Shown here: piece after piece, positions 5,601-23,861 of the stretch
Position numbering within the stretch: the first letter of the stretch is position 1
Layout of the letters: each line of letters opens with the position of its first letter
Assembly: GCA_021779665.1 (NCBI GenBank)
Contig: JAJYAG010000053.1
Location: forward strand, 1 to 37,616
Source: Bacteroidota bacterium
GTDB lineage: Bacteria; Bacteroidota; Bacteroidia; Bacteroidales; JAAUTT01
Length of the DNA stretch: 37,616 bases
Reading direction: 5' to 3'
Notes under the pieces: generated by a model
The model's database searches: none
Seen by the model: only the letters and a program-made list of their open reading frames with translations
Told to the model about the DNA's origin: nothing
Program-made: the position numbers and the translations under genes

Positions 5601-5818
5601 TTGGTAGCCATGCTGTTAAGCCACCACCAATAGCACCGTAACCGTGATTCGGATGGCGGATTCTGAAAACTCTTCTTCAGTTCGGGATATGCAATCTTTA
5701 TATCAGTACTTACCGGATATGATGGCTGAGCACTTATGTTTAAACTGTTCAGCAGTAACAAAAAAATGATGGAGTTAAATTCAAAAAAAGCAATGCGGCG
5801 CCTTCTTTTTTGATCCAT
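2663..5818 (-). CDS. GH106-type alpha-L-rhamnosidase, exported
   Basis: A 1051-aa protein starting at the ATG at 5818; the frame is open to a TTG at 5842. N-terminal basic stretch MDQKRRRR and a hydrophobic segment ending LNISAQ form a signal peptide. The segment FQNPPSESRLRCYWWWLN (about residues 50-70) is the typical opening of GH106 rhamnosidases. Further conserved blocks are TDSWEM (about 330-335), GEFWA (Glu435), VAAEGP (Glu471) and VNRIVWHTF. The C-terminal part (about 925-1030; KWVLDLGNV, VEVVNMWPNR) looks like a beta-sandwich carbohydrate-binding domain. GH106 enzymes cleave terminal rhamnose from pectic rhamnogalacturonans and other glycans; the exact substrate cannot be read here. 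It is cotranscribed with the isomerase gene, downstream of a terminator hairpin after susD. Confidence 0.85.
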   Translation of the reverse strand: MDQKRRRRIAFFEFNSIIFLLLLNSLNISAQPSYPVSTDIKIAYPELKKSFQNPPSESRLRCYWWWLNSMATKESITRDLTEMKAKGYGGASVVDAGSSNYTVARKTEAGPVFMSPAWMELYKHAVKEADRLGIELSVNVQSGWNPGAPSITPEFAMKKIVWSEVDVQGGKKLSINLPKPEVKLWYGDIMVQAVRKIKDAPLKNEAIQNWDKKSFNKPIGWKGVYPLNELWDDYPDNGEKYALKSNEIIDLTPNFNNETLEWNAPEGEWTIIRYGYTCTGAMTSTSSDGWSGLSLDHLSAEAFDLFSNTVILPLIKEAQAVGNSVKFLQTDSWEMNVVSWTKNFPTDFKALRGYDISRYMPVLTGRIVDNRQVSHRFLHDFRKTVGDLVEKNHYQLFYNLAHKYGMGIHPESGGPHSAPVDALRVMGISDFPQGEFWAMANTHRIKDDERLSVRQSACVAHTNGKRFVAAEGPTSIGPQWERSPKDLKGNIDRVFCSGVNRIVWHTFTSSPKEFGLPGNEYFAGTHLNPNVTWWEHAGDFISYLNRSSFMLQQGLFVADVLYYYGDDVPNFVFLKEELPELKFGYDWDKCSKDVVLNRVSFDGKKIVLPDGMSYRVMMMDPKKGIDLAVLKKLEMLVKNGMTLISSRPGVVTGLNDYPAADKEFETIAAKMWGKTDGKNITENKYGKGKVIWGKSVNDVLAEMKIDQDFSFVSADKNSAFDYIHRTTAGQEIYFISNRFSRKEFNDFQYRYITEMPDRYEQITARFRVSGMVPEIWNPITGEITEVPVYREENGITVVPLHFEPEGSKFIVFRKDEPKLHITEINKDGKQIFPAATLEAADFPVISVVRNNGNTKAEVYQSGKYSLKWSDGKVDNIEGKVDPNMILPKNSWTLKFVSGRGAPEKLELATLKSWTEFDDPGVKYYSGTAKYYNKFMISDSEITGNKWVLDLGNVQEMASVKINGHQMQVLWSAPFRFDISSYVKSGENDVEVEVVNMWPNRLIGDGNLPPDQRTTKTNINKFEDKNAEQLLRPSGLLSPVVIRKFPSFQLKK

Positions 5819-5875
5819 GGTAAAAAAGTTAAAGGTTAGCAAATTATAAAAGGAAAGGTATGATTTAGCAGTTAA

Positions 5876-5914
5876 AAAACTGAGTGCAGAAGAAAAACTT
5901 CCGCACTCAGTTTT
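5876..5914 (-). terminator. Intrinsic terminator between susD and the GH106 gene
   Basis: AAAACTGAGTGC (5876-5887) pairs exactly with GCACTCAGTTTT (5903-5914); inside, GAAG pairs with CTTC across one mismatch, closing an A5 loop (U5 in the minus-strand transcript). On the minus strand the stem runs into a T6 tract. It lies 18 bases after the susD stop and 57 bases before the GH106 ATG, so it would end most SusCD transcripts or lower enzyme expression through partial read-through. Confidence 0.8.
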
Positions 5915-5931
5915 AAAAGATGAATATCAGA

Positions 5932-7638
5932 TTACCGGGATGTCCAGCCTGGGTTTTGTTCCAGCTTCTCGTCCTTATTGGTATCAATAATTGTTTGAGG
6001 AATTGGCCATAAGTTATAATCGAACGTCAAAGTAGCTTTGGCTTCGGGCCAGAAGGCATACTTGCGGATACGTTCAACGGCAATGGTGCCGCCCATGCGA
6101 AGAAGTGTATTCCAGCGACATTCTTCATATACAAGTTCACGGCTTCGTTCATCAAGAATAAGATTGAACTTATCGTCAACATCGGCGGCTGTTACTAAAT
6201 AAGAACAGTTTGCACGACTGCGGAGCAGGTTAATGTCGGCAGCAGCACCAGCTTTATCGCCCATACGTTGTTTTGCTTCAGCACGCAATAAAATTGTTTC
6301 GGGCAAACGCATAAAATAATCGTCGCGGAAAAGGTTGCTGCGGTTTTCTCCATCAGTCAGACCGGTATAAAGATCGGTGGCAATTTTACAGGATATTGGG
6401 TAACAGAGACTTCTGTTATTATCGTTGTTATATAATATCGACCAGGGTACAGTTAGGTTATAATAAGCCGATGTTTTAACATTGCCAAGGAAGTTTCTTT
6501 TTAAAACAATATCTGAGTTTCTCATATCGTCGCTCCATTTTCCGGCATAAACACTATCGCGTGTGTACATGGTGGGAATAATTTGTGCAATACCGCGACC
6601 ACCAACATCTTCGAGTGTACCGGTAAGATGTCCCGAAGAACCATCGCGAAATACAGCGCCATAGGTACGGGAATATGGAAGTTTCGATTTTTTATCTTCA
6701 GCCTTATAAGCTGCATAATCAACCTGTAAAGCCCAGATACATTCCTTGTTGCCATCCTGGTAATTTACATTGTTTTCCTGGAATAAATCCCAGTAGACAT
6801 TTCCTTTGGCTTCTGCTTTCCTGGCACCATAACGGGCTTTCATCAATGAATAAGTTCCTCCGTCAATCACTTTGTTTCCATAGACAACCGACTGGCTGAA
6901 AGCTGTAGTGGCCTCGGAAGCTTTGCCTTCAGCAGCAAGCTGAGTTCCCAGGGCAAGATAAAGTTCGCAAAGTGTATGCTGAGCAGCTCCTTTAACCAGA
7001 CGACCACCAGCTGTTGTGGTTTCAGGAAGATCGTTTTCGATTGCAAGAAGTTCGTTAATGGCATATTGATAGGTTTCCGCCCTTGTTGCTCTTTTGTAAT
7101 TATAGGCAGGAACAATGGTAATATCCTCAACAATGGGTACGCCGCCAAAGAGTTCTGCCAGGTTTTTGTAAGCAAATGCCCGGAAGAATTTTGCCTGAGC
7201 AATGGTATAGGCCTTTTCGGCATCGGACGACCACGATATTTGAGTCTGAGCCGCAGCATAAAGAGCAAGATTTGCCCTGGAAATCATCTGGTACCATGTG
7301 CTGTAGATGTTATAGAAATTACCGTTATCCGGGTTGATATTGCCATAGTTATTGAAAGTATTACCACGACGAATGCTTGGCACATCGAACATATCGGTTC
7401 CATTTCCACGCAAAACAAAGATCCAGCCTTCTTCATTCGGATTAGCCCACAAATCACGCATCTGAGCATAAATGGCCAGTAGAACCTGGTCAATCTGAGT
7501 TGAAGAAGAGAAAGCATTGTCGACTGTATAAAAAGTAGAAGGCTTTTCTTCCAGAAACTTATCATCGTTTTCACATCCTGTAATATTGATTAGCAGGATT
7601 GCTATCAATATGAAGTATAGAATTTTTATATTTTTCAT
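5932..7638 (-). CDS. SusD/RagB-family nutrient-binding lipoprotein
   Basis: A 568-aa surface glycan-binding lipoprotein that caps its SusC partner. The signal peptide ends in lipobox NITGC (Cys22), followed by ENDDKF, an acidic/Lys stretch like the Bacteroidota surface-lipoprotein export signal. Typical SusD features follow: FLEEKPSTFYTVDNAF, then FFRAFAYKNLAELFGGVPIV (TPR region), and the C-terminal pattern FMRLPETILLRAEAKQRMGD with INLLRSRAN, LDERSRELVYEECRW and QNPGW at the end. It starts 19 bases after the susC stop, the usual tight pair. Ligand specificity cannot be read from the sequence. Confidence 0.95.
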   Translation of the reverse strand: MKNIKILYFILIAILLINITGCENDDKFLEEKPSTFYTVDNAFSSSTQIDQVLLAIYAQMRDLWANPNEEGWIFVLRGNGTDMFDVPSIRRGNTFNNYGNINPDNGNFYNIYSTWYQMISRANLALYAAAQTQISWSSDAEKAYTIAQAKFFRAFAYKNLAELFGGVPIVEDITIVPAYNYKRATRAETYQYAINELLAIENDLPETTTAGGRLVKGAAQHTLCELYLALGTQLAAEGKASEATTAFSQSVVYGNKVIDGGTYSLMKARYGARKAEAKGNVYWDLFQENNVNYQDGNKECIWALQVDYAAYKAEDKKSKLPYSRTYGAVFRDGSSGHLTGTLEDVGGRGIAQIIPTMYTRDSVYAGKWSDDMRNSDIVLKRNFLGNVKTSAYYNLTVPWSILYNNDNNRSLCYPISCKIATDLYTGLTDGENRSNLFRDDYFMRLPETILLRAEAKQRMGDKAGAAADINLLRSRANCSYLVTAADVDDKFNLILDERSRELVYEECRWNTLLRMGGTIAVERIRKYAFWPEAKATLTFDYNLWPIPQTIIDTNKDEKLEQNPGWTSR

Positions 7639-7657
7639 AGCTAATTACTTTTAATGT

Positions 7658-10600
7658 TTAGAAACTCAGGTTTGCACCAATGGAGTAGGTTGAAGGAACT
7701 GGGAATGTATTTTCCCTCACGGTAGTTCCTGTTTCAGGATCGCCACCAACCCAGTTTGTGAAAGTTGCGACGTTCTTGGCACTTACATAAACCTTGAGTG
7801 TGCTCAGGCGCAGTTTCTTCAGGAGATTCTGCTGGAAGGTATAGGCAAGTGAAATGTCCTGAATCCTTACAAAACCTCTGGATTGCAGACCAAGAAAACG
7901 GCCATCGCCGGCAAAATAAGCCGAAGGATATTCGTTGCTCTTGCTTTCGGGAGTCCAGTAGGGTTTCGAGGTCATGTTATCGTTAAACCTTCCTGTACCA
8001 GAGGTCATATACGCGTTTGTATTGCTCTTGAGATAATAGTTGTTGCCACCAAAGGTTCCTGTGACCATTGTGTACAGCTCAAAGTTTTTATAGCTAACAC
8101 TGTTGCTAAGGTTTAACCTGAAATTTTCCTTGTTATAACCAAGAATTTTGCGGTCGGCAGAAGTGATTCCCGGAACTCCGTCGATATCCTTATACTTGGG
8201 CGAACCAGGTGCAGCTCCTGTCAAAGTAATATATTCGGTATCAGTTTCCTGAACAATGCCATCCTGTTCGTATCCGTAAATAGCTCCAAGAGATTTGCCT
8301 ATAAATAAACTGCTGGCAATATCGTCATCTTCCTTACCATCGCCATTAATGTCTTCACCATAAAGCTTGGCCAGTTTATTTCTGTTTCTCCAGAAAGTAA
8401 CCCAGGAGCTCCAGTTCCAGTCGGTTGTCCTGACATTAACTGATCTGATTGTTAATTCAATACCCGAGTTATCAATTTGTCCCATGGATGTTTTAACAGT
8501 TTTAAAACCCGTCATTACAGGAATGTTACGCGTGAAGATCTGATCGGTAGTTTTCGAGAAGTAAACATCGAGATCGGCCTGCAACCGGTTATTAAACCAC
8601 GAAGATTCGAAGCCTGTATTCCACGATTCGGTGCTTTCCCATCCCAGTTCGGGGTTTCCTAAAGCATCCTGAAGTAATCCGTAACGGATAATGCCCGGGG
8701 AGTTCGAAAACTCGTAACGGTATCCACCGGTTGCTCCGTTTGCAACAGTTGAAAGTGTTCCATAAGGGCCAATACCCTGATTACCATTTTGTCCCCATGA
8801 AAACTTCAATTTAAGGTCATTCAGAAAAGTTATATTCTTCATAAATTCTTCTCCCGAAATTCTCCAGGCCAGACCAGCTGCATAAAAATCAGCCCATTTT
8901 TTATTAGCACCGAATACAGAAGCTCCATCACGGCGGTAAGAGCTGGTAAAAAAGTATTTATCGTTGAAAGAATAGTTTAACCGACCTAAATAACCAATAT
9001 TAGCCCGTTCATCTATATTCATTATAACTTTCTGTACGGTTGCTTTATGCAAACCATACAATCCCAAAACAGTATTGCCATTTGCTGAGAAGTCAGAACC
9101 CGTAGAATTTTCCTGTTCATATTTTCTGTAGTCGCGTGTTGCAACTAATGTTACATCGATCTTATGTTTCCCAAAAGAATTCTTATAATTTACAATATTA
9201 TCAAATACATAACTGTAAGTGCTGTTATTATCCACATTACCATTGGCACTGCTTAAAAAACCGGCAACAGTGGCAGCGCTGTAACGGGCTAAACCCTCAC
9301 CCTCTTTAATGTAATAATTTTCATTATAAAAATTCCCCGATTGATTTTTGTCAAGATTGGTGAGATAATTCAATCTGTAACTCAACCCTTTAACCCATGG
9401 TATCTGAATATAAGCATAAGTATTTAAACGGAAGTTATTTCTCTTATCCAGATTACTGCGTGTGCCATCATCAACACCCCATAACGGGTTAATAGCCGAT
9501 TGGGTATAAGGATATTTTTCGAGGTTACCCTGATCGTCGCGATACATAACACCATAAGGCGACATGGTCTGAGCCTCGCCGATGTTAGCAGCAAATCCGG
9601 AGTAATCGCGCTGAGAAAAGCCTCCGTCAACTCCAACTTCCAGCCATTTGGTAATATTCGTTTTAACTTTTGCAAGTATTGATAACCTATCGAAATCGTC
9701 TCCAACAACAATACCTTTATTTTTATTATAAGAAGTAGACAAATAATAATTGGTAAGCTTTGTTGCGCCCGAAACCGCCATCTGGTAATCCTGAATTACA
9801 CCCTGACGGGTAACTTCGTCGAGCCAAACAGTTTCCTTATTAGCAGCAAGATTAGCCAATTCACCGGCTTTCATCCAGGTGGTTGTACCTTCGGCGTATT
9901 TATTGCGAGCATTCACTACCTTAATCCATTCTTCACCCTTCATCATTTCTGGCTTATTTTGCCAGGTCTGAATACCGCTGAGTGCGCTGAATGTAATCAT
10001 CGGCTTTTCGGAACTACCCTTTTTGGTAGTAATGGCAATAACCCCGTTTGCAGAACGGGAACCATATACTGCAGCAGAAACGGCGTCTTTCAGAATGTCG
10101 TAACTGGCAATATCATTGGGGTTAATGTCGTTGAGGCTTCCCAAATAAATAACACCATCGAGAACAATCAGAGGATCGTTGTTCCCCCCTATAGAATTTT
10201 GTCCGCGAATATCCATGGCAGGCTCACCACCGGCAGTATTTGTGGCTCCGATATTTAAGCCGGCAATATTTCCTTTAAGGGACTCAAGAGCATTAAGGTT
10301 TGGAGCAAGCGAAACAGCTGAGTTTTCCATTTTAAGAGAACTTACTGAACCCGTAAATTCCTTTCGGTTAGCCGTACCATAACCAACAACGATAACTTCT
10401 TCAAGATTTGTAATATCCGCAATCATTTTCACATCCATCACTGCTTGTCCGGCATATGGAATTTTTTCGGAGATGTACCCTACATATGAAAATACAAGTA
10501 CAGCGCTTTCCTGTGGAAAATCGAGAGAATACTTACCATCAATATCAGTGGTTGTACCAATGGTAGAGCCTTCAATAATCACGTTTACACCAGGCAGTCC

Positions 10601-11017
10601 TTCTCCGGTTTGGGAATCGGTTACCGTTCCGGTAATTTTCTTCTGTTGTACAGCTTTACTCGTTATTACAACCAGATTATTGTCAAATACTTTAAAAGTT
10701 AAATCGGAGCTAACGAACAAACGTTCCAGAACGTTTTCGATAGATTCGTCGTTAGCACGGATGGTAACTTCGCGGTTAACATTTACCAGTTCGTTCCTGT
10801 AAAGGAATTTGAAGTCACTCTTTTGTTCAATTTCAGTAAAAACATCTTTTACTGTGACGTTTTTCAGGTCGACCGAAATTTTCGACTGTGAAAACACTGT
10901 GGCCGAAACACTGATAAAGGATGCAAAGAAAAGGAAGGTGGTTATTTTCATGATAAGTAGTAGTTTATGAATACCATTCCTACCCTGAAAAAAAGGGTAA
11001 AGTAATTTTTTTTTCAT
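7658..11017 (-). CDS. SusC/RagA-family TonB-dependent outer-membrane transporter
   Basis: A 1119-aa receptor starting at the ATG at 11017; the frame extends to a TTG at 11044. It has the long Bacteroidota-type signal region (MKKKLLYPFF... to SATVFSQ). Domains in order: STN signalling domain (about 45-121), carboxypeptidase-regulatory-like domain (about 128-205; TGTVTDSQTGEGLPGVNV), TonB-dependent plug (about 220-335; IVVGYGTANRKEFTGSV, PLIVLDGV, YGSRSANGVI), then the barrel ending YSIGANLSF. The STN domain is what such receptors use to signal to a FecR anti-sigma factor, matching the FecR and sigma genes just upstream. It imports the glycan bound by SusD using TonB energy. Two small hairpins occur in its leader. 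Confidence 0.95.
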   Translation of the reverse strand: MKKKLLYPFFQGRNGIHKLLLIMKITTFLFFASFISVSATVFSQSKISVDLKNVTVKDVFTEIEQKSDFKFLYRNELVNVNREVTIRANDESIENVLERLFVSSDLTFKVFDNNLVVITSKAVQQKKITGTVTDSQTGEGLPGVNVIIEGSTIGTTTDIDGKYSLDFPQESAVLVFSYVGYISEKIPYAGQAVMDVKMIADITNLEEVIVVGYGTANRKEFTGSVSSLKMENSAVSLAPNLNALESLKGNIAGLNIGATNTAGGEPAMDIRGQNSIGGNNDPLIVLDGVIYLGSLNDINPNDIASYDILKDAVSAAVYGSRSANGVIAITTKKGSSEKPMITFSALSGIQTWQNKPEMMKGEEWIKVVNARNKYAEGTTTWMKAGELANLAANKETVWLDEVTRQGVIQDYQMAVSGATKLTNYYLSTSYNKNKGIVVGDDFDRLSILAKVKTNITKWLEVGVDGGFSQRDYSGFAANIGEAQTMSPYGVMYRDDQGNLEKYPYTQSAINPLWGVDDGTRSNLDKRNNFRLNTYAYIQIPWVKGLSYRLNYLTNLDKNQSGNFYNENYYIKEGEGLARYSAATVAGFLSSANGNVDNNSTYSYVFDNIVNYKNSFGKHKIDVTLVATRDYRKYEQENSTGSDFSANGNTVLGLYGLHKATVQKVIMNIDERANIGYLGRLNYSFNDKYFFTSSYRRDGASVFGANKKWADFYAAGLAWRISGEEFMKNITFLNDLKLKFSWGQNGNQGIGPYGTLSTVANGATGGYRYEFSNSPGIIRYGLLQDALGNPELGWESTESWNTGFESSWFNNRLQADLDVYFSKTTDQIFTRNIPVMTGFKTVKTSMGQIDNSGIELTIRSVNVRTTDWNWSSWVTFWRNRNKLAKLYGEDINGDGKEDDDIASSLFIGKSLGAIYGYEQDGIVQETDTEYITLTGAAPGSPKYKDIDGVPGITSADRKILGYNKENFRLNLSNSVSYKNFELYTMVTGTFGGNNYYLKSNTNAYMTSGTGRFNDNMTSKPYWTPESKSNEYPSAYFAGDGRFLGLQSRGFVRIQDISLAYTFQQNLLKKLRLSTLKVYVSAKNVATFTNWVGGDPETGTTVRENTFPVPSTYSIGANLSF

Positions 11018-11053
11018 ATTTTTGAAAAGTTTGAAATTATACAATGGCAGTGT

Positions 11054-11125
11054 CTCAATTTTGCGGATTGAGCATTGCAGTAGTTAAATTTTTAATACCG
11101 GATTGTGTTTGCGGCACTTTCCGGT
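11054..11125 (-). promoter_or_regulatory. susC leader with two small hairpins
   Basis: Between fecR and susC (175 bases) the minus-strand leader can form ACCGGA/TCCGGT (11097-11102 with 11120-11125, 17-base loop) and CTCAAT/ATTGAG (11054-11059 with 11067-11072, 7-base loop). No clear TAnnTTTG promoter was found in this gap, as expected if an ECF sigma factor is used. Role inferred. Confidence 0.3.
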
Positions 11126-11192
11126 TTTTGTTTTTTTAGTTTCAGGTCATAGGCATAATTAATTATAAGTTAATAAATAGCTGTATTAGTAA

Positions 11193-12311
11193 TTATTGTA
11201 CTTTCTGAATTGGCTTCAGGCTTAAATAAATATTATTTTCGTTGATAATATAGTGAAAGGGAGATGCAAACTGAAGAGCAGCAAATAGTTGCTCCACCGA
11301 AACCTCAGGAAATTTCCCCGTAAAGCGGAACGATTTTAATTCCTCATCCATAAACCGGCATTTCATATTAAACTGACGCTCAAGCTTTACTGCAAGACTT
11401 TCGAAAGGTTCGTTATCAAATACCAGTTTATTTTCTTTCCACGATGTAAATAATTCGGTATTAACTTTTTCGTCAAACAACAGCGAATCTTTTCTCACCA
11501 GTATATCCATGCTCTTAACTGTTGGCTTGTCTTCGGCCATAACAACCGACGTTTTGGAGCTAACATCAATAAAGGAACTTGCCTTATAGAAAGTAGCCTG
11601 CTGGTTAGGCTTCAGATAAACTACCGAGGAATTTTTAGCATTGCCAGCCACTTTAATATCGTGCTTTTCAATAGCTACAGCCCCTTCCACGAGGGTTGTC
11701 TGGATAATATCTTCCGAAGAATACGATTTTACGTTAAATGCGGTTCCCACCGCCCTGATATTAACTTTTGAAGTGTGCACTATAAAAGGTTTTTCTTTGT
11801 TTTTAGCAATCTCAAAGTATCCTTCTCCCTCCAGATAAACATCTCTTGTATTTTCAGAAAACGATTCGGGATAAGTGAGTTTACTTTCGGCATTTAACCA
11901 CACTTTGGAACCATCGGCAAGTTCAACATAAGCTTTGGAACCTTTGGGGGTAACAATTTTGCAGGTTACGACATTTTTAGTAACAGGTTTAAGATAATAA
12001 CCTGCGAAAAATGCTATGCCCGATGCAAAAATCAGCATAGCTGCAATTCGTGATATTCTGCTTAAAAGTGAAACGGATTTCTTCTGCCCAAAACCTTCAA
12101 TATGGTCGTTAAATTTCTGGAAAGCTCTTTCGGAGTTAAATTCGTGCCTGCGCCCAATTATTTCCATTGCATTCCACAACATCTCGTACCTGGCAAACTC
12201 TTTCGGATTATCTTCCGATTCGTTAAACCAATGCAGCAATTGCTGAATTTCTTCCGAGGTAGCATCTCCACTTATAACACGGGAAATAATATCGTTTATT
12301 TCGTAATTCAT
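11193..12311 (-). CDS. FecR-family anti-sigma factor of the SusCD locus
   Basis: A 372-aa inner-membrane regulator. The N-terminal cytoplasmic part (about 1-80) would bind the sigma factor; one transmembrane segment follows (about 85-107; IAAMLIFASGIAFFAGYYL). The periplasmic FecR domain begins near TPKGSKAYVELADGSKVWLN and continues through VYLEGEGYFEIAKN and VRAVGTAFNVKSY-like motifs. The C-terminal domain (about 290-368; LVFDNEPFESLAVKLERQF) is the DUF4974 type. It lies between its sigma gene and susC on the same strand, the normal order for this signalling cascade, in which ligand-loaded SusC releases the sigma factor. Confidence 0.93.
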   Translation of the reverse strand: MNYEINDIISRVISGDATSEEIQQLLHWFNESEDNPKEFARYEMLWNAMEIIGRRHEFNSERAFQKFNDHIEGFGQKKSVSLLSRISRIAAMLIFASGIAFFAGYYLKPVTKNVVTCKIVTPKGSKAYVELADGSKVWLNAESKLTYPESFSENTRDVYLEGEGYFEIAKNKEKPFIVHTSKVNIRAVGTAFNVKSYSSEDIIQTTLVEGAVAIEKHDIKVAGNAKNSSVVYLKPNQQATFYKASSFIDVSSKTSVVMAEDKPTVKSMDILVRKDSLLFDEKVNTELFTSWKENKLVFDNEPFESLAVKLERQFNMKCRFMDEELKSFRFTGKFPEVSVEQLFAALQFASPFHYIINENNIYLSLKPIQKVQ

Positions 12312-12394
12312 TTTATCAGATTGTATTATTATGACAATTCCGGAACAAAGTACAGTAAAAGGAATGTGTATTTTTTTTCGAAAAATTTGAATTT

Positions 12395-12994
12395 TTAATT
12401 CAAAATAGTGGTAAGTACAAGTAAATGAATAATTAGCGGAAGATAAGAATCCAGTGACTTGCGTAATTTTTCAAGAGCAATGGATATTTGTTTTTGAACA
12501 GTGTTCAGGGTAACCTTCTTTTTTTGGGCTATTTCCTGGTTTTTTAGTCCGGCAAACCGGCTTAACTTAAATATATCCCTGCATTGCTCGGGCAACAAAT
12601 CAATGGCTTCGAGTATTCTGGATTCGAGTTCTTTAGCCAGTACAACAGAAAGACCACTTTCCTGGGTCACAGTGAAATACTCTTCGGCATTTTTCAGCTT
12701 CTGTGCATACGCTTCGCTGTATTTGTTTTTTATCTGCTCCTTTTTAAGGTAATTCAAAGCATTGTTCTGAACCGATTTGTAAAGATAGCCGGTAACTGTT
12801 TCCGTTACTTCCAGATTTTCCCAAGATTCCCAGAGCTTTACAAATGTTTCGTGAACTATTTCTTCGGCTGAGGCTTTGTCCCTCGTAAATCGCATGGCAT
12901 ACAGGCACAACGGACCGTAATATTCAGAAAACAACATTCCGAATGTTTTCGGATCAGCTTTCGAAAGATTAGAAGTCAGGTCCTTTGGATGCAT
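12395..12994 (-). CDS. ECF sigma-70 factor controlling the SusCD locus
   Basis: A 199-aa ECF sigma factor with region 2 (about 17-85; FGMLFSEYYGPLCLYAMRF, AEEIVHETFVKLWESW) and region 4 (about 130-185; IDLLPEQCRDIFKLSRFAGL and a helix-turn-helix QEIAQKKKVTLNTVQKQIS). The C-terminus is a short hydrophobic tail (LPLIIHLLVLTTILN), seen in some Bacteroidota ECF factors. It is the first gene of the sigma-fecR-susC-susD run. An AT-rich 8-bp inverted repeat followed by a T-tract (12386-12404) overlaps the stop codon and could cause some termination before fecR. A near-consensus -7 box (TTACTTTG) lies at 13012-13019. Confidence 0.93.
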   Translation of the reverse strand: MHPKDLTSNLSKADPKTFGMLFSEYYGPLCLYAMRFTRDKASAEEIVHETFVKLWESWENLEVTETVTGYLYKSVQNNALNYLKKEQIKNKYSEAYAQKLKNAEEYFTVTQESGLSVVLAKELESRILEAIDLLPEQCRDIFKLSRFAGLKNQEIAQKKKVTLNTVQKQISIALEKLRKSLDSYLPLIIHLLVLTTILN

Positions 12995-16042: not shown

Positions 16043-17791
16043 TCAGCCACCAGGCCTTCCTCCACCAGAAGCAGAACCCAGTGAGGTAACCGAACCGGAG
16101 ATTGTAAAATTACCATAAAGTGTTCCTCCGGTATAGCCGCCGCCGGTGTACAATCCATTTTGCAATGTCCCCGTTGAGCTGCCTCCTGTATAGATATAAT
16201 AAGTGCTGCCGCTTTTTAATGCAGCTGAGGAAAATACCATGGAATAATAGGAGCGCACGGGTTTAAAGGTCAGTATGTCGTTTCCGGCAGCATCCTGAAC
16301 ATGAAATATAGTATTTGCAGCAAGACCTGAAGTCATTATCACCCGTACCGAATACTGAGAGGAGCTAGTGCTGGGAGCCTGTGTCATATTGGAATTAGTT
16401 CCCGAAATTGCCAAAAGGCCGCCGGTTACGTTGCAGGTTCCGTTGTAGTCCATACCAACTTCTGGCGACGACTGTGGTCCGTGAGCCACGACGGTGCCAC
16501 CCGAAATTGCAATACTTCCGTTACTGTCCAGGGCATCGCCACCCGAGGCATTCACGTAAACATTACCTCCTGCGATGGAAAGCAGACTACCATCGTTCGA
16601 TTCTCCTCCGTTTCCTTTGGTTGCGTTAAAACAGTCGTCGGAAGATACAATACTTACACTTCCGTCGTTCACTTTTATGCTGGGACTTTCAATACCTTCG
16701 TACGATTTTGTAATAGATACCATTCCTTTGTTTATGGTAACAGAACTTTCGGCTTTAAACCCATCGTCGCCCGAGGCTGCAATAACTTCCCCGCCGTTGA
16801 CAACAAGTTCTCCATTGGTATGAACAGCATCGTCGGCTGAGCTGATGGTGAAAGTGCCCCCGTTGATGGTAAGCTTGACTTCAGCCTTTACTCCTTTTGC
16901 CGACAAGGTCGAAGCTACTGTTTTAGTGCTTCCGCCACCTGAGGTAAGTGTGTACTTTCCTGAATTTGCAGTAAAGTTTGTCTGCGCCGAAATAGCATCG
17001 CCGCCGGATGTTATATCCATGGTATCGGTAGATAATACTATATAGCCCAGCGCAGAATTTTCAGTATTGTCCGACTTAAATCCATCGCCACCGGATTTGA
17101 TGGTAAAACTCGCTCCTTTGGCATACAGATAGTCCTTGCCGCAAATCCCGTCATCCACCGCAGTGATGTTAATTTTTGAATCGCGCACAATCAACCCGTC
17201 TTTGCTCTGAATTCCATCCTTGTAGTTTCCTTTCACAATCAAAGTTCCTGAGCCACAAATTGTAAGGTTCGATTTACTGTAGATACAAGCATTGGGGTCG
17301 GTTGTGGCGGTACTTGCATAAGTGGTGGCATCGCTAAAGGTGTTTTGTGTTCCTGCCTGAAGATTAACTACCACTTTTTTAGCTTTGGAGATCAAAAACG
17401 GAGTTGTTGTTGAATTAGATATCTGAGCGCCTGCAAGAATTATACGCAATACTCCGGTGTCGTCAGTTTTTACAACCAGCTGCCCGTTGGTAAGAGATCC
17501 TGTAACACTGTATGTTGCAGCTTTGGTAATGGTAAAAACACTTCCCGAAACTGTCACTCCATCATTATTCACACTTACAGAAGTGCCATTGAGCACTATT
17601 GGAATTACATCGGCCGCATTCCAGACGTAATCAGTCGAATCTTCGTGCAACCCGGCGGTATTGTCCTGATCGGTATCAGAATCAGTATTTGTCTTTGTTT
17701 CCGGATCATCCTGAATATAGTCCTTTTCGCATGACCACACCAGCGACAGAAACAGGAAAGCCATGAAGCACAACAATTTATTTCTGCTCAT
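16043..17791 (-). CDS. Cthe_2159-like beta-helix carbohydrate-binding lipoprotein
   Basis: A 582-aa lipoprotein: signal peptide with lipobox LVWSC (Cys21), followed by EKDYIQDD and an Asp/Thr-rich linker (about 22-55), consistent with surface export. The body consists of regular beta-helix coils, each marked by a turn of the form (D)DG(I/F): KDGIQS, DDGICG, GDGFKS, GDAISA, DDAVHT, DDGFKA, YEGIES, DDCFNA, GDALDS. This matches the Cthe_2159 family, whose founder from Clostridium thermocellum binds cellulose and polygalacturonate and has a polysaccharide-lyase-like fold. The C-terminus is Gly-rich (SASGGGRPGG). It starts 8 bases after the DUF2490 stop, hence is co-transcribed. Binding target here is unknown. 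Confidence 0.85.
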   Translation of the reverse strand: MSRNKLLCFMAFLFLSLVWSCEKDYIQDDPETKTNTDSDTDQDNTAGLHEDSTDYVWNAADVIPIVLNGTSVSVNNDGVTVSGSVFTITKAATYSVTGSLTNGQLVVKTDDTGVLRIILAGAQISNSTTTPFLISKAKKVVVNLQAGTQNTFSDATTYASTATTDPNACIYSKSNLTICGSGTLIVKGNYKDGIQSKDGLIVRDSKINITAVDDGICGKDYLYAKGASFTIKSGGDGFKSDNTENSALGYIVLSTDTMDITSGGDAISAQTNFTANSGKYTLTSGGGSTKTVASTLSAKGVKAEVKLTINGGTFTISSADDAVHTNGELVVNGGEVIAASGDDGFKAESSVTINKGMVSITKSYEGIESPSIKVNDGSVSIVSSDDCFNATKGNGGESNDGSLLSIAGGNVYVNASGGDALDSNGSIAISGGTVVAHGPQSSPEVGMDYNGTCNVTGGLLAISGTNSNMTQAPSTSSSQYSVRVIMTSGLAANTIFHVQDAAGNDILTFKPVRSYYSMVFSSAALKSGSTYYIYTGGSSTGTLQNGLYTGGGYTGGTLYGNFTISGSVTSLGSASGGGRPGG

Positions 17792-17799
17792 AATAAATC

Positions 17800-18501
17800 T
17801 TATTTGAATGAAATATAATACCCAACGCCCAGAACACTTCTGTTTACAGGATTGTCAACATCGATTTCCTGATCAAAAAGTCCGTAAATTTCGATGCGTT
17901 GAGACTTACTGAATTTGTAATTCAAAGAGAGGATATATCGAACCTGATCAAATTTATTCCCATCAGGATTATTAAGCTGGTAAAACGATTCAACTGAGAA
18001 AGCAGGAGTAACCGGAAAATTAGGGATGTTATATTTCAATTTTAAACGGTTGCGCCAGGCATATTCGGGGTTTACTTTGTAGTTGTCAATTAAGCCTGTT
18101 TCGGTAACACGGCCTCTTTCGTCTTTAATGGTCCGTTGAAACCGTTCCCGAAGGCTTACTGAAAATCTTCCGAACTTTTGTTCACCCTGAATAAAAAGAT
18201 TGTATCGTTGGCGGGGTTGGTAGTCGTTAAATTCCGAATCGTAAAAATTATAGTAATTGTAACTTAGCCCAATGGTAACAGGCTTGAAAATATTATAGCT
18301 CACATCCAGTCCTATCCCATAACGGGTAACCTGACTCAGGAAATCGCTGTTACGTATTTCTCCCGAAAGGGACACGTCCAACTTGCCAAATTGTTTTGTA
18401 AGGCCTATTTCGGACCAGATTCCGTGTTCGGTGGATTGAGCCGCAGCTTTGGTGAATGCAACAATCAAAACAATGATGATAATGAAAAGCGTTTTTATCA
18501 T
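17800..18501 (-). CDS. DUF2490-family outer-membrane protein
   Basis: A 233-aa protein from the ATG at 18501; the frame is open to 18561 but only this start gives a signal peptide (MIKTLFIIIIVLIVAFTKAAA). The mature part, IWSEIGLTKQFGKLDVSLSG, then YRNRLK-type and YGLFDQEIDVDNP motifs and a terminal VLGVGYYISFK, is the DUF2490 pattern, a predicted outer-membrane barrel of unknown function. Its start codon lies only about 10 bases after the U-tract of a terminator hairpin, so it must be expressed by read-through from the lipoprotein gene upstream. The Cthe_2159-like gene follows after 8 bases. Confidence 0.8.
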   Translation of the reverse strand: MIKTLFIIIIVLIVAFTKAAAQSTEHGIWSEIGLTKQFGKLDVSLSGEIRNSDFLSQVTRYGIGLDVSYNIFKPVTIGLSYNYYNFYDSEFNDYQPRQRYNLFIQGEQKFGRFSVSLRERFQRTIKDERGRVTETGLIDNYKVNPEYAWRNRLKLKYNIPNFPVTPAFSVESFYQLNNPDGNKFDQVRYILSLNYKFSKSQRIEIYGLFDQEIDVDNPVNRSVLGVGYYISFK

Positions 18502-18516
18502 AATTTCTTTAAAAAA

Positions 18517-18542
18517 GTGCCTGGAGCCCAACCTCCAGGCAC
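18517..18542 (-). terminator. Terminator/attenuator between lipoprotein and DUF2490 genes
   Basis: GTGCCTGGAG (18517-18526) pairs perfectly with CTCCAGGCAC (18533-18542) across a 6-base loop, followed on the minus strand by T6. It is 37 bases after the lipoprotein stop and about 15 bases before the DUF2490 ATG. There is no room for a promoter in between, so it probably sets the expression ratio by partial read-through. Confidence 0.8.
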
Positions 18543-18579: not shown

Positions 18580-19527
18580 TTAATGTCTTCCTTTATGCAT
18601 GTGTTTGTGAAACTTTCCGCCTTCACCAAATCTGCCTTTTGCAAGATCAATTACTTCAGTAGTATCGTTTGCAGTAACTGTCGCAGAACTGTCGCAGGTA
18701 CCATCGCCATAGTCAATTACAGTGACATTACCATCTCTGCTGAGTTCTTCTTTACCGCTTTTGATAAAACCGCAACTCTTGTCGTACAGAAGAGCTGATG
18801 TAATGGTTCTGCCGAATTTCAAAGTATTATTAACCGTCAAGGTTCCTGAACCGGTTTTGTAATAAACATCGTCGGCTTTATCGGTAGTTTCAAACCCGCT
18901 TACCCATTCAATAGATTCGTTGTTTTTCTGAACAATAATATCGCCATCGGGTTGGGTCATGATTTGTTCCCACGAAGTTTCTACCACCCAATTCCCATTG
19001 GCATTTTTGCCAAGGTTCTTGCGTGTTGCAGTCAGGTCGACCTTTGTGCTGTCCACATAGAAATTATCGTATTTTACAGTCTGAACAGCGCCGGCATTGA
19101 TAACCGTATCGGACATTTCGATGACAATTTTACCCGATTTAACATGGTTCTTACCTTCGGTGCAGGCAGTTCCATAATCAACAGTAATTGTTTTCGGAAA
19201 AGTACTGCTGCTTACTGTAACTGTTGCGCAGCTGTTAATATGTGGAATTCCAAACCGTACAGGTTCCATATGCCCAAAACCTTTGCCGTAACCAAGCTTA
19301 GGATTAAAACCGTCGAATGAAAAAGCCTTTGTTGTTCCGTCGAACTTCTCAACAGCGAGACTCTGCACGTCGGCCACGCTCGTTTCGTAAACCTGGTTCC
19401 CAATAACCTCAGAAACAACCCCGGTTAAATCGGCCGACAAGTCTCCGTTATTCTCGTTCTGGAACTTTTGGCACGAAAAAACCACCATTGCTGTAATAGC
19501 TACAGATCCAATTAACCTTTTTTTCAT
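18580..19527 (-). CDS. Lipoprotein of unknown function with His/Lys-rich tail
   Basis: A 315-aa lipoprotein with lipobox VVFSC (Cys19). Two related modules are visible: Cys100...DYG(117-119)..Cys122 followed by SGKIVIE, and Cys252...DYG(272-274)...Cys278; each places a Cys about 20 residues before a beta-strand ending DYG and a second Cys just after. The C-terminus is basic and His-rich (FGEGGKFHKHMHKGRH), and another His/Gly-rich patch (GYGKGFGHMEPVRFGIPH) lies near residue 80-96, which may bind metal. Similar Cys-DYG-Cys lipoproteins are common and uncharacterised in Bacteroidota. It is the first gene of the operon with DUF2490 and the Cthe_2159-like gene, behind a putative ECF promoter. 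Confidence 0.75.
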   Translation of the reverse strand: MKKRLIGSVAITAMVVFSCQKFQNENNGDLSADLTGVVSEVIGNQVYETSVADVQSLAVEKFDGTTKAFSFDGFNPKLGYGKGFGHMEPVRFGIPHINSCATVTVSSSTFPKTITVDYGTACTEGKNHVKSGKIVIEMSDTVINAGAVQTVKYDNFYVDSTKVDLTATRKNLGKNANGNWVVETSWEQIMTQPDGDIIVQKNNESIEWVSGFETTDKADDVYYKTGSGTLTVNNTLKFGRTITSALLYDKSCGFIKSGKEELSRDGNVTVIDYGDGTCDSSATVTANDTTEVIDLAKGRFGEGGKFHKHMHKGRH

Positions 19528-19570: not shown

Positions 19571-19596
19571 AATACAGGCATACATTTTTTCACCCT
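19571..19596 (-). promoter_or_regulatory. Putative ECF promoter of the lipoprotein operon
   Basis: On the minus strand AGGGT, 13 bases, CCTGTATT, ending 43 bases before the ATG at 19527. An identical arrangement with the same 13-base spacing precedes the second sigma gene (23836-23861). Both have A-rich sequence just after AGGGT. The repeated bipartite form fits a -35/-10 pair recognised by one ECF sigma factor. Motifs and spacing are seen; promoter activity is inferred. Confidence 0.6.
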
Positions 19597-19777
19597 AACA
19601 GGAAATAAAAGTTATTTTTAACTCAATCGAAAAAACCAAAAAAAACTGTTAATAAGAACCACAAAGGTTAATACAAGAGAACCACAGAAAAATTATGTTG
19701 ATAAAGTCAGATTGAATTATAGAAGGGTAATATGCTTTGGATATTTTTAGAAAGGCATGGTTGACCTTAAAATAAGT

Positions 19778-22453
19778 CTAAAAGCTGAAATGCAGAAACA
19801 GATTTAACGACCGAGCTTTGGAGCGTATGAGGTTCGTTTGTGAAAAGGACATATTTTCGAAATTGAAGTCACGAGAGTTAATATCATAATAGTTCCGGGT
19901 ATTCAGAACATTTATAACAGAGGCTCCAAGTTTAAACTGAGACTTGCCTAAATGAAATGCATAATTGGCTGATAAGTCAGTTCTGAAATAATTCGGCACA
20001 CGGGCATAATACCTGAAGAAACCATCTAAATAAGGATCTTTCTCCATTTTGTAATAGGGTCGCCCGGTCGAAAAAAGAAAAATAGAGCCAAAATTCCATT
20101 TCCCAAAAGAAACCATGTTGTTAACACTTAACTGGTGCAACTGATCGGTTGAAGAAGGGAAAGCATATCCGAAGTTAATCTCATCAAACCTTTCAAGGCT
20201 CCGGCTTATGGAATATGAAACCCATCCGGTATAACTCTTTCGTTTATATTGAAGCATAAAATCAATTCCATAGGCCTCTCCATCGCCATCGAGAAAATAA
20301 CTGGCGCGGTTTTCGGTTCCCGGCGCCGGGGAAAATTTATCCCGATCAGTATTTCTTCGAAAATGAGAAATATAAAAATACTCCTGAATGCCACTTATAC
20401 TTTTGTAATAAGCCTCAGTATCAAAAATGAAATCGCCTCTTTGAAAATTAGCTCCAATTACATAATGATCGGAGTTGATTACCGGATGCCTGATTCCATC
20501 GGCCAAAACCCAGAAATTCTTAATATAACCTGTTTCCTGCGCGGCACCAACCTGACTGATATATTGGCAATAATGCCCATAAGCCATTCTCAGGGACGTT
20601 CTTGAATCCAGATCTGCACCCAGAGCCAACCGGGGTTCAACATAAATTCGTTTTGTGCCATTGTAGTAATTCACCCTTAACCCGGGTTTAACGGTGAAAA
20701 CATTATTCAGCTTAATCCTGTCGAGAAAATACAGGGAGCTTACCCAGTTTTTCTGGTCAATGTTATCATAAACAAGTGTATCGCCTGAATCTTTGTAATA
20801 GAAGGTATGATTGCGACGCGACAATGCTCCGAAATATAGCTGATGCCGGTCATTTAGGGTATATGAGTTTTTAAGAGATATTGCCAGGTCGTTCAGGGTA
20901 TTCTCATCGTTCATTGGGAAATTATTGATCTTCTGAGGCAAAGGATCAGTAGGTTGCTCTTTCGATGAAACAGTTGATTCTATTAATGTTCGGTTTGAGT
21001 ATAAATTCGAATAACCTGAAGCACCCACCTGCAAACTGGTAAATAATGAGTTATTCCATTGTCTTGTCCAGTTTCCGCTTAAACCAAAATTACTCCAGGT
21101 GCTTTTATCAACATTGTCAATTAATAATCCTTTGTAGGAATTTGAGTAGGAATTATCAATGAAGTCCTTCCCACCATAATAGCTTACTGATAAGCTTTCG
21201 CGTGAATTGGGACGAAAAGTCAGTTTGCTGTTATAGTCGTAAAACTTAAATGATGGCGTACTTACAACGGTTGTATTTGGCATAGGACCCTGGAAACCAT
21301 CAATTCCGCCACTCCGGACAACATCCTTTGCGAATTCGGTTGAATAAATATCCGAATAGGTTCTCCTGAAAGCCGCAACCAGCGATATCTTTTTGCCAAC
21401 GGGAACTTCGGCGGTAATATTTCCACTCAACAGATTAATATCGCCATAAATTTTAGGTCGTTGATAGTTTCCCGATTTAGCCGTTATATCCACAATTCCC
21501 GATACCCGCTCTCCGTAACGGGAGTCGAAGCCGCCCTTAAACACCTGAACATCTTTGATAACATTGGGATTCAGCGACGAAATCATTCCATAATAGTGGC
21601 TCAGGTTATAAAGCGTTTGTCCGTCGAATAAAATAAGGTTCTGATCACTGGAGCCTCCATGTATACTAAGCTCCGAAGAATTTTCGGAGTAACTTATGCC
21701 GGGAAGCAGCTGCAACGTCCTGAAAATATCGGTTTCAACCTGGATAGGCAAATCAATAAGCTTGGAAACATTGATGGTGGTTGCAAAATCGACATCGTTC
21801 CTGAAATCGATCATTTCCAGACGCGGACTGTTAACAACAACAGTATCTATAAGCTGTACCTTTCTTTTAAGCTGAAAGCTAAGACTCTGGTCGGGATTAC
21901 TCCAGTGGATAAGCGTATCGACAGGATTATACCCAATAAAATTTACTACAATACGAAAAGGGTTCGCCTGTATATTTTTGAAGCTGAAAGAGCCCGACGA
22001 TGATGCATAAGTATTCATATTCAGCTCGGGAAGCACAACTGCAGCGTAAGGCAATTGCTCACCCGATTCGCGATCAGTAATAGCCCCCAAAATCCTGCAC
22101 GAAACCGTGTCGGCAGAGCCAACAACTCGTTTATCAATTAATAGAAACCGGTTGTGCTTGTAAACGTAATCAAACGACAAACCCGAGAGTAAATTTTGCA
22201 TAAACTCCTCGGGTGTATTTCCTGTTACCTGCCTGTTTATATGTACCGTGGATGCTTTTTGAGCGTCGAAAGCAACTTTTATCTTAAGTTGCTCCGATGC
22301 TTTAGTAAGTGCATTTGCCAGTGTTTCTCCTTTATAATCTATTTTATAGGTTTGTGCGGACAAATTCCCAAATACAACTAAAGCCAACAAGCAAAACAGT
22401 ATTTTAATCCGACTTATTCCGAACCTGTATTTTACTATTGGTTCCAATCTCAT
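19778..22453 (-). CDS. TonB-dependent receptor with STN signalling domain
   Basis: About 891 aa from the ATG at 22453; an ATG at 22483 is possible but gives a longer N-region before the hydrophobic signal segment (IKILFCLLALVVFGNLSA). Order: STN domain (TYKIDYKGETLANALTKASE to NRFLLIDKR), carboxypeptidase-regulatory-like domain (ILGAITDRESGEQLPYAAVV), plug (LPIQVETDIFRTLQLLPGIS, LILFDGQTLY, VFKGGFDSRYGERVSGIVDI), barrel ending LNLFLHFSF. The gene overlaps the end of fecR by 50 bases, so the cassette is translated together. There is no susD partner, and the barrel is shorter than a SusC, closer to FecA-like receptors. The ligand is unknown; signalling to the adjacent FecR is expected. Confidence 0.9.
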   Translation of the reverse strand: MRLEPIVKYRFGISRIKILFCLLALVVFGNLSAQTYKIDYKGETLANALTKASEQLKIKVAFDAQKASTVHINRQVTGNTPEEFMQNLLSGLSFDYVYKHNRFLLIDKRVVGSADTVSCRILGAITDRESGEQLPYAAVVLPELNMNTYASSSGSFSFKNIQANPFRIVVNFIGYNPVDTLIHWSNPDQSLSFQLKRKVQLIDTVVVNSPRLEMIDFRNDVDFATTINVSKLIDLPIQVETDIFRTLQLLPGISYSENSSELSIHGGSSDQNLILFDGQTLYNLSHYYGMISSLNPNVIKDVQVFKGGFDSRYGERVSGIVDITAKSGNYQRPKIYGDINLLSGNITAEVPVGKKISLVAAFRRTYSDIYSTEFAKDVVRSGGIDGFQGPMPNTTVVSTPSFKFYDYNSKLTFRPNSRESLSVSYYGGKDFIDNSYSNSYKGLLIDNVDKSTWSNFGLSGNWTRQWNNSLFTSLQVGASGYSNLYSNRTLIESTVSSKEQPTDPLPQKINNFPMNDENTLNDLAISLKNSYTLNDRHQLYFGALSRRNHTFYYKDSGDTLVYDNIDQKNWVSSLYFLDRIKLNNVFTVKPGLRVNYYNGTKRIYVEPRLALGADLDSRTSLRMAYGHYCQYISQVGAAQETGYIKNFWVLADGIRHPVINSDHYVIGANFQRGDFIFDTEAYYKSISGIQEYFYISHFRRNTDRDKFSPAPGTENRASYFLDGDGEAYGIDFMLQYKRKSYTGWVSYSISRSLERFDEINFGYAFPSSTDQLHQLSVNNMVSFGKWNFGSIFLFSTGRPYYKMEKDPYLDGFFRYYARVPNYFRTDLSANYAFHLGKSQFKLGASVINVLNTRNYYDINSRDFNFENMSFSQTNLIRSKARSLNLFLHFSF

Positions 22454-23291
22454 AATCCAGCCCCATTGGTATACAAACAACATCTAAAACGTTCACGAGA
22501 TCTCTGTTCGAAAAATCCCCTGTATAGAATTTATTCTCGATTTCAGGAAGTGTAAAAGTAACATTAAATTGTCTCTCGATCTCCTTAAAAACATCAATTA
22601 ACGGAGCCGATTCGAAATAAAACTGTCCAATCCGCCAGTTCGAAACGGTCGTAATATTCTTATCAGTAAACTCCTGTAGCCGGTTGTTTTTTGAAACCGC
22701 ACTTTCGCCGGGTGTAAGAATAACAGCATCGCCGGCATTCTTTACCTGCACCTTACCGGTTACACAGCTCACCTTAAACGATTTTTCACGTGCATGGATG
22801 TTAAATGAAGTGCCCAGCACCCTGATATCAGCAAACCTTGTCCTCACCACAAAGCCGCTTCCCTTCTTCACTCTGAAAAAAGCCTCTCCTTCGAGTTTCA
22901 GAAATCTGTTTTTATTGAAGCTGCTTTTCCTGAAGGATATTTTGCTTTCCGCATTGATGCTTACCATTGATCCGTCGGGTAAACGGTATTCGGTCTGCTG
23001 TCCTTTAGGAGCCACAACATTGGTGGTGCCAAAGTATGAAAAAGTCGACCAGACTCCCAGTAAAACCAGGATGGATGCAGCTGCTGAGTATATCCAGCGC
23101 ATTTTGGTGCGGGGGTTTAACGCTACTGTTTTCGGAGTGGAAGAATTTTCAATCCGTAACTTCAGCCTCCTTAGAGCTTCTTCTTTCGAAATTGTGGCGG
23201 GCACGTCCAGTTCCGAGGCCCGGGAAATTATTTTCCTTTCCAGTTCCGAATTGCCATTCGCCACTTCTTTATTGTTTAATTCGTCGAACAT
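22404..23291 (-). CDS. FecR-family anti-sigma factor, second cassette
   Basis: A 295-aa inner-membrane anti-sigma factor. Cytoplasmic N-terminus about 1-68, one transmembrane segment (IYSAAASILVLLGVWSTFSY, about 70-89), periplasmic FecR domain (VVAPKGQQTEYRLPDGSMVS, LKLEGEAFFRVKKG, IRVLGTSFNIHAR), and a C-terminal DUF4974-type domain (FYFESAPLIDVFKEIERQF, VCIPMGLDYEI). It starts 11 bases after the sigma stop and overlaps the receptor start, the canonical sigma-fecR-receptor order. It should hold the sigma factor until the receptor's STN domain signals ligand uptake. Confidence 0.93.
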   Translation of the reverse strand: MFDELNNKEVANGNSELERKIISRASELDVPATISKEEALRRLKLRIENSSTPKTVALNPRTKMRWIYSAAASILVLLGVWSTFSYFGTTNVVAPKGQQTEYRLPDGSMVSINAESKISFRKSSFNKNRFLKLEGEAFFRVKKGSGFVVRTRFADIRVLGTSFNIHAREKSFKVSCVTGKVQVKNAGDAVILTPGESAVSKNNRLQEFTDKNITTVSNWRIGQFYFESAPLIDVFKEIERQFNVTFTLPEIENKFYTGDFSNRDLVNVLDVVCIPMGLDYEIGTNSKIQVRNKSD

Positions 23292-23302
23292 GATTTATTT
23301 CT

Positions 23303-23803
23303 TTAAATGTTCATGTTTAATTCTTTCTTTAAAAAGGCTAAAGCCTTCTCCATTCGTTTCTCCACGGCTTTTACCGTAATCCCCAGATTATCGGCAATTT
23401 CCCTGTATGTAAGTTTATCTATCCGGTTCATTAAAAAAACCGTCCGTCGTTTATCGTCCAATTCACCTATTGCTCTGCGGAGCTTTGTGTCGAATTCTTT
23501 CATCTCCAGCAGATACTCGGGCGATTCTTCCATTCTGTCCGTACGCAATGTACTCCTGAAATTAAATGCTACCTTCTGATGCTCTACCTTATTTAAGAAA
23601 AGGTTATTTGCGGTAGTATAAAGCAGCTGCTTTACCGTTTCGAACCGAACATCTGCCCGCTTCTCCCATATTTTTAAAAATGCATCCTGAGCTGTATCCT
23701 CAGCCAATTCAATATTTCCCGACTTATAATAAATATAATTCCGGATGGGCTCGTACCAACTGTTGAATACATTGTCAAACTCTGCCTGACTTATGCCTGC
23801 CAT
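23303..23803 (-). CDS. ECF sigma-70 factor, second cassette
   Basis: A 166-aa ECF sigma factor. Region 2 is about residues 10-75 (FNSWYEPIRNYIYYKSGN, AEDTAQDAFLKIWEKR); region 4 is about 110-160 (ELDDKRRTVFLMNRIDKL with helix-turn-helix REIADNLGITVKAVEKRME). It lacks the hydrophobic tail of the first sigma factor. It heads the sigma-fecR-receptor cassette. A bipartite site AGGGT-N13-CCTGTATT lies 33 bases before its start and is repeated before the lipoprotein operon at 19527, suggesting autoregulation and control of that operon. Confidence 0.93.
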   Translation of the reverse strand: MAGISQAEFDNVFNSWYEPIRNYIYYKSGNIELAEDTAQDAFLKIWEKRADVRFETVKQLLYTTANNLFLNKVEHQKVAFNFRSTLRTDRMEESPEYLLEMKEFDTKLRRAIGELDDKRRTVFLMNRIDKLTYREIADNLGITVKAVEKRMEKALAFLKKELNMNI

Positions 23804-23835
23804 TATAAAGCTTGTTATAACTTAAATTCGAATTA

Positions 23836-23861
23836 AATACAGGTGACCTGAATTTTACCCT
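23836..23861 (-). promoter_or_regulatory. Putative autoregulated ECF promoter of the second sigma gene
   Basis: On the minus strand AGGGT, 13 bases, CCTGTATT, ending 32 bases before the ATG at 23803. It shares both boxes and the spacing exactly with 19571-19596. A small dyad (CAGGT-G-ACCTG on the + strand) overlaps the spacer. Read as a -35/-10 pair it fits positive autoregulation by the ECF factor. Confidence 0.6.

Follow-up and report, generated by a model that had tools for sequence, protein, structure and literature searches.

Two identical promoter-like sites before the sigma factor gene of a FecI/FecR/TonB-receptor cassette and a lipoprotein gene in a Bacteroidales genome: a candidate autoregulated regulon

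The window considered here is the 37,616-nucleotide stretch of contig JAJYAG010000053.1 (assembly GCA_021779665.1, positions 1 to 37,616) from a Bacteroidota bacterium of the order Bacteroidales, and it raises the question of why two of its genes, one for an extracytoplasmic function (ECF) sigma factor and one for a lipoprotein, are each preceded on the minus strand by the same bipartite element, AGGGT-N13-CCTGTATT. Site 1 lies at 23836..23861 (-), with 32 bases between its end and the sigma ATG (23803); site 2 lies at 19571..19596 (-), with 43 bases between its end and the lipoprotein ATG (19527), and the 5' ends of the sites are 58 nt and 69 nt ahead of the respective start codons. An exact pattern search recovers this identical pair as the preliminary description of the DNA had reported it, including distances of 30-45 bases to a start codon and A-rich sequence after AGGGT at both sites. 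The two sites are very probably the -35/-10 promoters of the one ECF sigma factor encoded at 23303-23803, which would place both genes in a single autoregulated regulon; the system is most likely of the FecI/FecR/TonB-receptor cell-surface signalling kind, predicted to be autoregulated and to have an unusual target module.

The element is rare in its own genome. Two exact matches occur in the window, where 100 dinucleotide shuffles give a mean of 0.00; the genome search proposed in the preliminary description, covering 6,936,451 bases on 305 contigs (96.6% complete), returns only the same two sites, with one match for a backwards-read control pattern, and the claim that no third exact copy exists holds beyond the window. 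The loose likeness reported for the G-rich block before 15860 did not survive scoring: both window sites reach 15/16 against the consensus TAGGGTAA-N11-(C/T)TGTATTA, while every position in that block stays below 12/16, ruling it out as a third copy. Searches allowing two mismatches return 88+106 matches in the genome compared to 82+82 for the backwards control; because these counts are so close, the loose matches are considered mostly background. Eight of the ten one-mismatch sites fall within open reading frames (ORFs) of more than 150 aa (C79, C105, C108, C145, C176, C183, C226 and C301) and were set aside. The other two, on C68 and C200, lie outside such ORFs; judged by eye, the C68 site coincides with the beginning of a short reading frame on the opposite strand, and C200:21811, located 89 nt ahead of a histidine-kinase ORF, is a weak candidate for a further target. 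Among the stretches fetched from this genome, 5/137 ORFs of at least 150 aa have a site scoring at least 13 within 150 nt upstream: the two window genes, the ORFs of two stretches (C200 and C68) that had been fetched for their near-matches, and the C200 ECF gene.

Similar sites precede orthologous sigma genes. Thirty loci were given, of which seven have no sigma match; among the remaining 23 sigma homologues, eight have a site of at least 13/16, each score being reached by 0/300 shuffles, and these eight are precisely the members of the set that are at least 55% identical. Conservation upstream of orthologous cassettes, a test which the preliminary description had suggested, was found in all qualifying cases: where the receptor is at least 36% identical, sigma is matched and the upstream DNA is long enough, a site of at least 13/16 stands before sigma in 12/12 cassettes. 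These cassettes (L231-L235, L237, L238, L240 and L242-L245) come from 49 named-record loci, L236 being left out for want of a sigma match and L239 and L241 being cut; relatives with the site before sigma include metagenome-assembled genomes (MAGs) labelled Bacteroidetes, Bacteroidales, Prolixibacteraceae and Odoribacter sp. Once duplicate records and L239 are removed, 14/24 distinct sigma homologues at least 48% identical have a site of at least 13/16, and 0/29 do below 48%.

At E<=0.001, 160/393 genomes of the order have lipoprotein homologues, the majority of which are distant. Upstream of the lipoprotein, 8/30 loci score at least 13/16 (seven with 0/300 shuffles, L039 with p 0.003). Twenty stretches were fetched for gene order: L066, L067, L068 and L071 have the window's order of sigma, FecR, receptor and lipoprotein; L069 has receptor and lipoprotein at a contig end; in L070, L072, L079, L080, L081 and L082 the lipoprotein precedes sigma and FecR, followed by the receptor where the contig continues; and in seven (L065, L073-L078) no cassette genes accompany the lipoprotein within the stretch. 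The fetched stretches L083 and L084 have no lipoprotein match, so that cassette genes adjoin the lipoprotein in 11/18 stretches with a match. The lipoprotein operon had been called separate; it does have a site of its own, however these 11 stretches weaken its separateness. Window-like sites precede both the lipoprotein and sigma in L068 and L071, and the lipoprotein in L065, L066, L067 and L069; before sigma, L066 and L067 have AGGGT-N13-GTTGTATT. In the lipoprotein-first cassettes, 5/6 display TAGGGTA before the lipoprotein with a different -10 box (CGGTATAG, CGGTTAG or CGGTGTAT), and L070, in which only the region upstream of sigma was examined, has TAGGGTA there.

Genomes in which the gene order has been shuffled separate the site from its surroundings. 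In G001, of the same genus, the sigma cassette (sigma 64%, FecR 54% and receptor 51% identical; L134) and the lipoprotein (56% identical to that of the window) lie on different contigs, and the three exact matches in this genome stand before sigma (C205), before the lipoprotein (C18) and at the edge of C298, where the site (C298:39-64, L135) reads off the contig end. The pattern TAGGGT-N14-CTGTA, searched in five genomes of the genus, is found five times in G001, four times in the window's genome and once in each of the remaining three. The two G001 places other than the exact copies both read AGGGT-N13-ACTGTATT: one on C86 is 82 nt ahead of an unlinked pair of DUF2490 (48% identical) and Cthe_2159 (56% identical) genes, and one on C310 is 207 nt ahead of a lipoprotein ORF, which is followed by a small ORF, VTC, DUF4956 and DUF2490. 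Of the ORFs of at least 150 aa in the G001 stretches, 3/57 have an upstream site of at least 13: lipoprotein, sigma and DUF2490. Genome G381 has near-sites before sigma, before the lipoprotein and before its DUF2490-Cthe_2159 pair, which is not linked to the cassette and where the site reads AGGGT-N13-CATGTATT. The putative promoter is retained before the corresponding genes though their order is shuffled in G001 and G381, and the claim of a single regulon including self-activation is strongly supported by this comparison, since several species have sites before their orthologues of sigma and of the lipoprotein. What is directly observed is the presence of the sites, how unique and how conserved they are, and that the association persists after gene shuffling. 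Among 30 Cthe_2159 loci, sites of at least 14/16 were found only in those of G001 and G381, in what is a partial control (the own-genome locus stops short of site 2, DUF2490 was found in only 6/30 and flanks are 1.5 kb); for G384, G219 and G127, whose Cthe_2159 genes are related, no FecR relative was found at E<=1e-40, which fits the absent sites.

Thirty collected sites describe the motif rather than test it, as TAGGG was required, most were picked for their score and close relatives contribute some of them. Mean information is 1.69 bits in the core columns, 0.39 in the spacer and 0.26 in the flanks; T-G-T-A is present in 30/30, and T at position 6, A at position 7 and the final A in 27/30 each. 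The gap is 13 bases in window and orthologue sites, the strand is fixed, and the distance to the start codon is mostly 50-131 nt, with one at 207.

The regulon may be larger than the preliminary description perceived. In the window's own genome a VTC-DUF4956-DUF2490 cluster on contig C272 has AGGGG-N13-ATTGTATT approximately 92 nt before its first ORF, making it a possible third target; VTC is presumably of the polyphosphate-polymerase type. An LTD-type ORF is convergent on the cluster both here (L280 125-3562) and in G001 (L163 20-805); the LTD match is just under cut-off in L163, and the own copy was recognised by eye.

Several observations weigh against a single regulon under this sigma factor. 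Ten of the 24 sigma homologues at least 48% identical have no upstream site, L263 being among them at 55%; L241 is cut by a contig edge and counts against the reading formally only, and the other nine (L250, L255, L257, L260, L263-L265, L269 and L276) have receptors only 25-29% identical. Likewise, 22/30 lipoprotein loci have no site. The looser TAGGGT-N14-CTGTA is not enriched over its backwards control (5 versus 4 in G001; 4 versus 2 in the window's genome), therefore placement rather than number is the evidence. The site before the own VTC cluster scores 12/16 only and is weak alone; in 164 kb of fetched own-genome sequence 12/16 is reached 26 times, seven of these reaching 13 and three reaching 14. 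No site of at least 13 precedes the VTC cluster in G381, G230, G018 or G178, nor one of at least 12 in the wider G381 stretch, so that universal membership of this cluster is unsupported. Lastly, an ECF gene on C200 (L282 5185) has TAGGGGTA..CCTGTCTTA upstream. Because of this similar element the cognate sigma factor is not proven and cross-recognition is possible; the element suggests related promoters which differ in the -10 box. Among the distant cassettes, the similar site in L250, L255, L257 and L263 precedes not sigma but a second FecR gene, and L260 and L276 have sites elsewhere within the cassette.

The C200 element bears on the strongest of the alternatives, in which the sites are ECF promoters read by another or by several FecI-like sigma factors, the neighbouring one being one user among several. 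The genome has 78 sigma family matches (38 over the curated cut-off), and TAGGGTA with CGGTAT-type -10 boxes also precedes more distant cassettes; nevertheless this alternative is considered unlikely, as window-like sites track orthologues of this sigma factor and of the lipoprotein across genomes, the exact motif in the own genome is confined to this cassette, and nothing near the window's other ECF gene (12395-12994) scores 12/16 or more. A bipartite site alone is no proof of a promoter, and the motif could instead be bound by a DNA-binding regulator; no search was made for another regulator gene travelling with the cassette. The 13-base gap, the fixed strand and the placement mostly at 50-131 nt fit an ECF promoter, and the regulator next door to the sites is itself an ECF sigma factor, which leaves a separate regulator improbable.

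It is slightly less probable still that site 2 is unused and that sigma-FecR-receptor transcripts running on past the receptor gene supply the lipoprotein. In favour of such read-through, a scan of the receptor-lipoprotein gap found no terminator-like hairpin on the minus strand; against it, G001 keeps the site before the lipoprotein though the sigma cassette is on another contig, and the site is also kept before cassette-linked lipoprotein genes in G259, G167, G381 and G230. Mere chance repetition has next to no probability and is already contradicted by the comparative data. An exact match is present in 57/393 genomes of the order, many of them probably by chance, and exact matches placed at the regulon number two in the window's genome, two in G001 (the third being at a contig edge) and one each in G259, G167 and G178 (that of G178 before sigma), the remaining ones not being tied to the regulon. 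The backwards-read control is found in 23/393 genomes, however, and neither the shuffle mean of 0.00 nor orthologous placement in several genomes is expected of a chance repeat.

With the two sites taken as promoters of the neighbouring ECF sigma factor, the genes they would control can be described in order. On the minus strand these are the ECF sigma factor, FecR, the TonB-dependent receptor, site 2, the lipoprotein, a hairpin, DUF2490 and Cthe_2159. The sigma factor (23303..23803) has regions Sigma70_r2 and r4_2 above cut-off; its score to the Bacteroides-type ECF subfamily Sig70_bacteroi1 (TIGR02985) is 121.2 bits, just below the 126.4 cut-off, and it is not assigned to that subfamily. The adjoining FecR-type anti-sigma/regulator (22404..23291, -) matches FecR at 67.7 bits and FecR_C at 42.2 bits, and an alignment of six orthologues finds the solved structures 4m0n/4m0h, labelled 'putative anti-sigma factor'. 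The receptor (19778..22483, -) contains CarbopepD_reg_2 and Plug (39.6 bits), so that one cluster encodes a sigma factor having regions 2 and 4, a FecR-type regulator and a TonB-dependent receptor. Of five N-terminal receptor regions given, that of the window has no STN match; below cut-off, STN appears in 2/5 (E 0.0043 and 0.031) and FecR_C in 3/5, and a HasR fragment comes up at E 0.27.

The lipoprotein (18580..19527, -) has a Cys19 that is invariant in 29 aligned sequences, and matches no Pfam family at E<=0.001. Its structure model is mostly beta (mean pLDDT, the predicted local distance difference test, 83.5); Foldseek gives 0 matches at E<=0.001, VIA-align gives a best Z of 10.0 to an EspP barrel (4.9 A, 188 aligned), with sterol-binding ORD domains interspersed, and the best E in a profile search of solved structures is 0.15. 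These likenesses in the model are read as a common beta arrangement, from which no function is inferred and by which no fold is excluded. DUF2490 (17800..18501, -) probably starts at ATG 18501, as judged by eye, with TTG 18561 in frame, and is followed by the Cthe_2159-domain (carbohydrate-binding) protein (16043..17791, -), named from its domain match.

The lipoprotein, DUF2490 and Cthe_2159 genes had been described as one operon; their order stands, however a simple three-gene operon is doubtful because a strong intrinsic-terminator-like hairpin (18517..18542, -; 10-bp stem, T6) lies directly 3' of the lipoprotein gene, between it and the likely DUF2490 start. The 61-nt stretch folds at -23.3 kcal/mol (z -3.67). 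Similar hairpins follow the lipoprotein in G001 and, approximately 115 nt behind the gene, in G259; for G381 the scan reported none, and a GGGCACTC...GAGTGCCC-TTTT hairpin is visible by eye. Since such hairpins recur behind the gene, the lipoprotein is probably made mostly as its own short transcript, and DUF2490-Cthe_2159 in the window would probably depend on read-through past the hairpin.

Elsewhere in the neighbourhood, no SusD or glycoside hydrolase match at E<=0.001 was found in the sigma, FecR, receptor, lipoprotein, DUF2490 and Cthe_2159 genes or in the next genes on either side, and this segment is not assigned to a SusC/SusD polysaccharide utilization locus; a GH106 lies only farther away, at 2666-5842. 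The region of the other ECF gene (2666-12994) holds this GH106 rhamnosidase together with an isomerase-like protein, and nothing in it scores 13/16 or more as a site. At the contig edge, 32369-37547 contains rpoC and the end of rpoB. In the MAG PFL1 (L247), 9957-11132 is an apparently degenerate cassette which keeps the lipoprotein and two full sites; as read by eye, sigma passes after its first residues straight into mid-FecR and the receptor is reduced to its N-terminal part, through either a real deletion or an assembly fault.

A mechanism can be proposed in which the TonB-dependent receptor would bind or import a ligand and so cause a signal to pass across the periplasm to FecR, which would free or activate the sigma factor; RNA polymerase carrying it would then recognise TAGGGTAA-N11-(C/T)TGTATTA. 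Site 1 would give positive autoregulation of sigma-FecR-receptor, and site 2, between receptor and lipoprotein, would add lipoprotein transcription, the hairpin behind that gene passing only part of the transcripts into DUF2490-Cthe_2159; the weaker site before the C272 cluster may add a third target. From sequence we infer the recognition by sigma, the direction of regulation, the ligand, the roles of the targets and the signalling step, the last because the receptor N-terminal region is only weakly STN-like. A broader proposal, held tentatively and at somewhat less than even confidence, is that a TonB-receptor-sensing ECF sigma factor controls, through this consensus, a dispersed surface module (lipoprotein, DUF2490 proteins, Cthe_2159 and VTC-DUF4956), whereby an outer-membrane signal would switch on a VTC-type (polyphosphate-polymerase-like) system.

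The nearest known system is FecI-FecR-FecA for ferric citrate in E. coli, which likewise combines an ECF sigma factor, a FecR-type regulator and a TonB-dependent receptor in one cluster and in which FecI controls transcription of the receptor gene. The fec target is the iron-citrate transporter, whereas the predicted targets here are the lipoprotein and the DUF2490, Cthe_2159 and VTC genes. E. coli fecIR is described as not autoregulated in PMC9249621; here, in contrast, the sigma operon itself bears the motif and autoregulation is predicted. The ECF sigma/FecR-type anti-sigma pairs of Bacteroides polysaccharide utilization loci share with this cassette the ECF sigma factor, the anti-sigma factor, the TonB-dependent outer-membrane protein and the phylum, but the cassette has no SusD or glycoside hydrolase match. 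According to PMC7366714, by 2020 none of the ECF sigma factors of B. thetaiotaomicron had a known motif, and the B. fragilis factor EcfO did have one; the same text gives TAnnTTTG as the primary promoter described for the phylum, which the window motif does not resemble. Two ECF sigma factors have since been tied to a -30/-10 motif with TGTT near -10 (PMC12596196), and an ECF motif of F. psychrophilum has a CGT -10 box (PMC9723704). Literature searches found no description of the present promoter, the accessible text of PMC11501099 containing no matching motif; an earlier description is possible, and the EcfO motif was left without comparison.

Gram-positive pel loci include a CotH/polyphosphate-polymerase/DUF4956 accessory cluster (PMC7112168), which shares polyphosphate-polymerase and DUF4956 genes with the cluster found here; in the latter, VTC-DUF4956 occurs with DUF2490, and a surface-signalling sigma factor is probably in charge in G001 and perhaps in the window's genome. 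A role of the targets in a surface polymer or in adhesion is a guess from the domain names and the pel-locus neighbourhood as presented in PMC7112168. A DUF4956-DUF2490 pair of B. thetaiotaomicron is entered as lowered on iron shortage (-7.6; next column 0.175) in PMC10434189, an entry too weak to be usable as support.

ECF sigma factors number in the dozens in Bacteroidota genomes (50 in B. thetaiotaomicron; PMC12596196), and for few of them is a promoter known. Gene shuffling provides a natural test in such a case, as the same site moves with the same genes to new places; it yields here a testable consensus, a candidate regulon and what would be a first regulatory context for the uncharacterised families DUF2490, Cthe_2159, VTC-DUF4956 and this lipoprotein.

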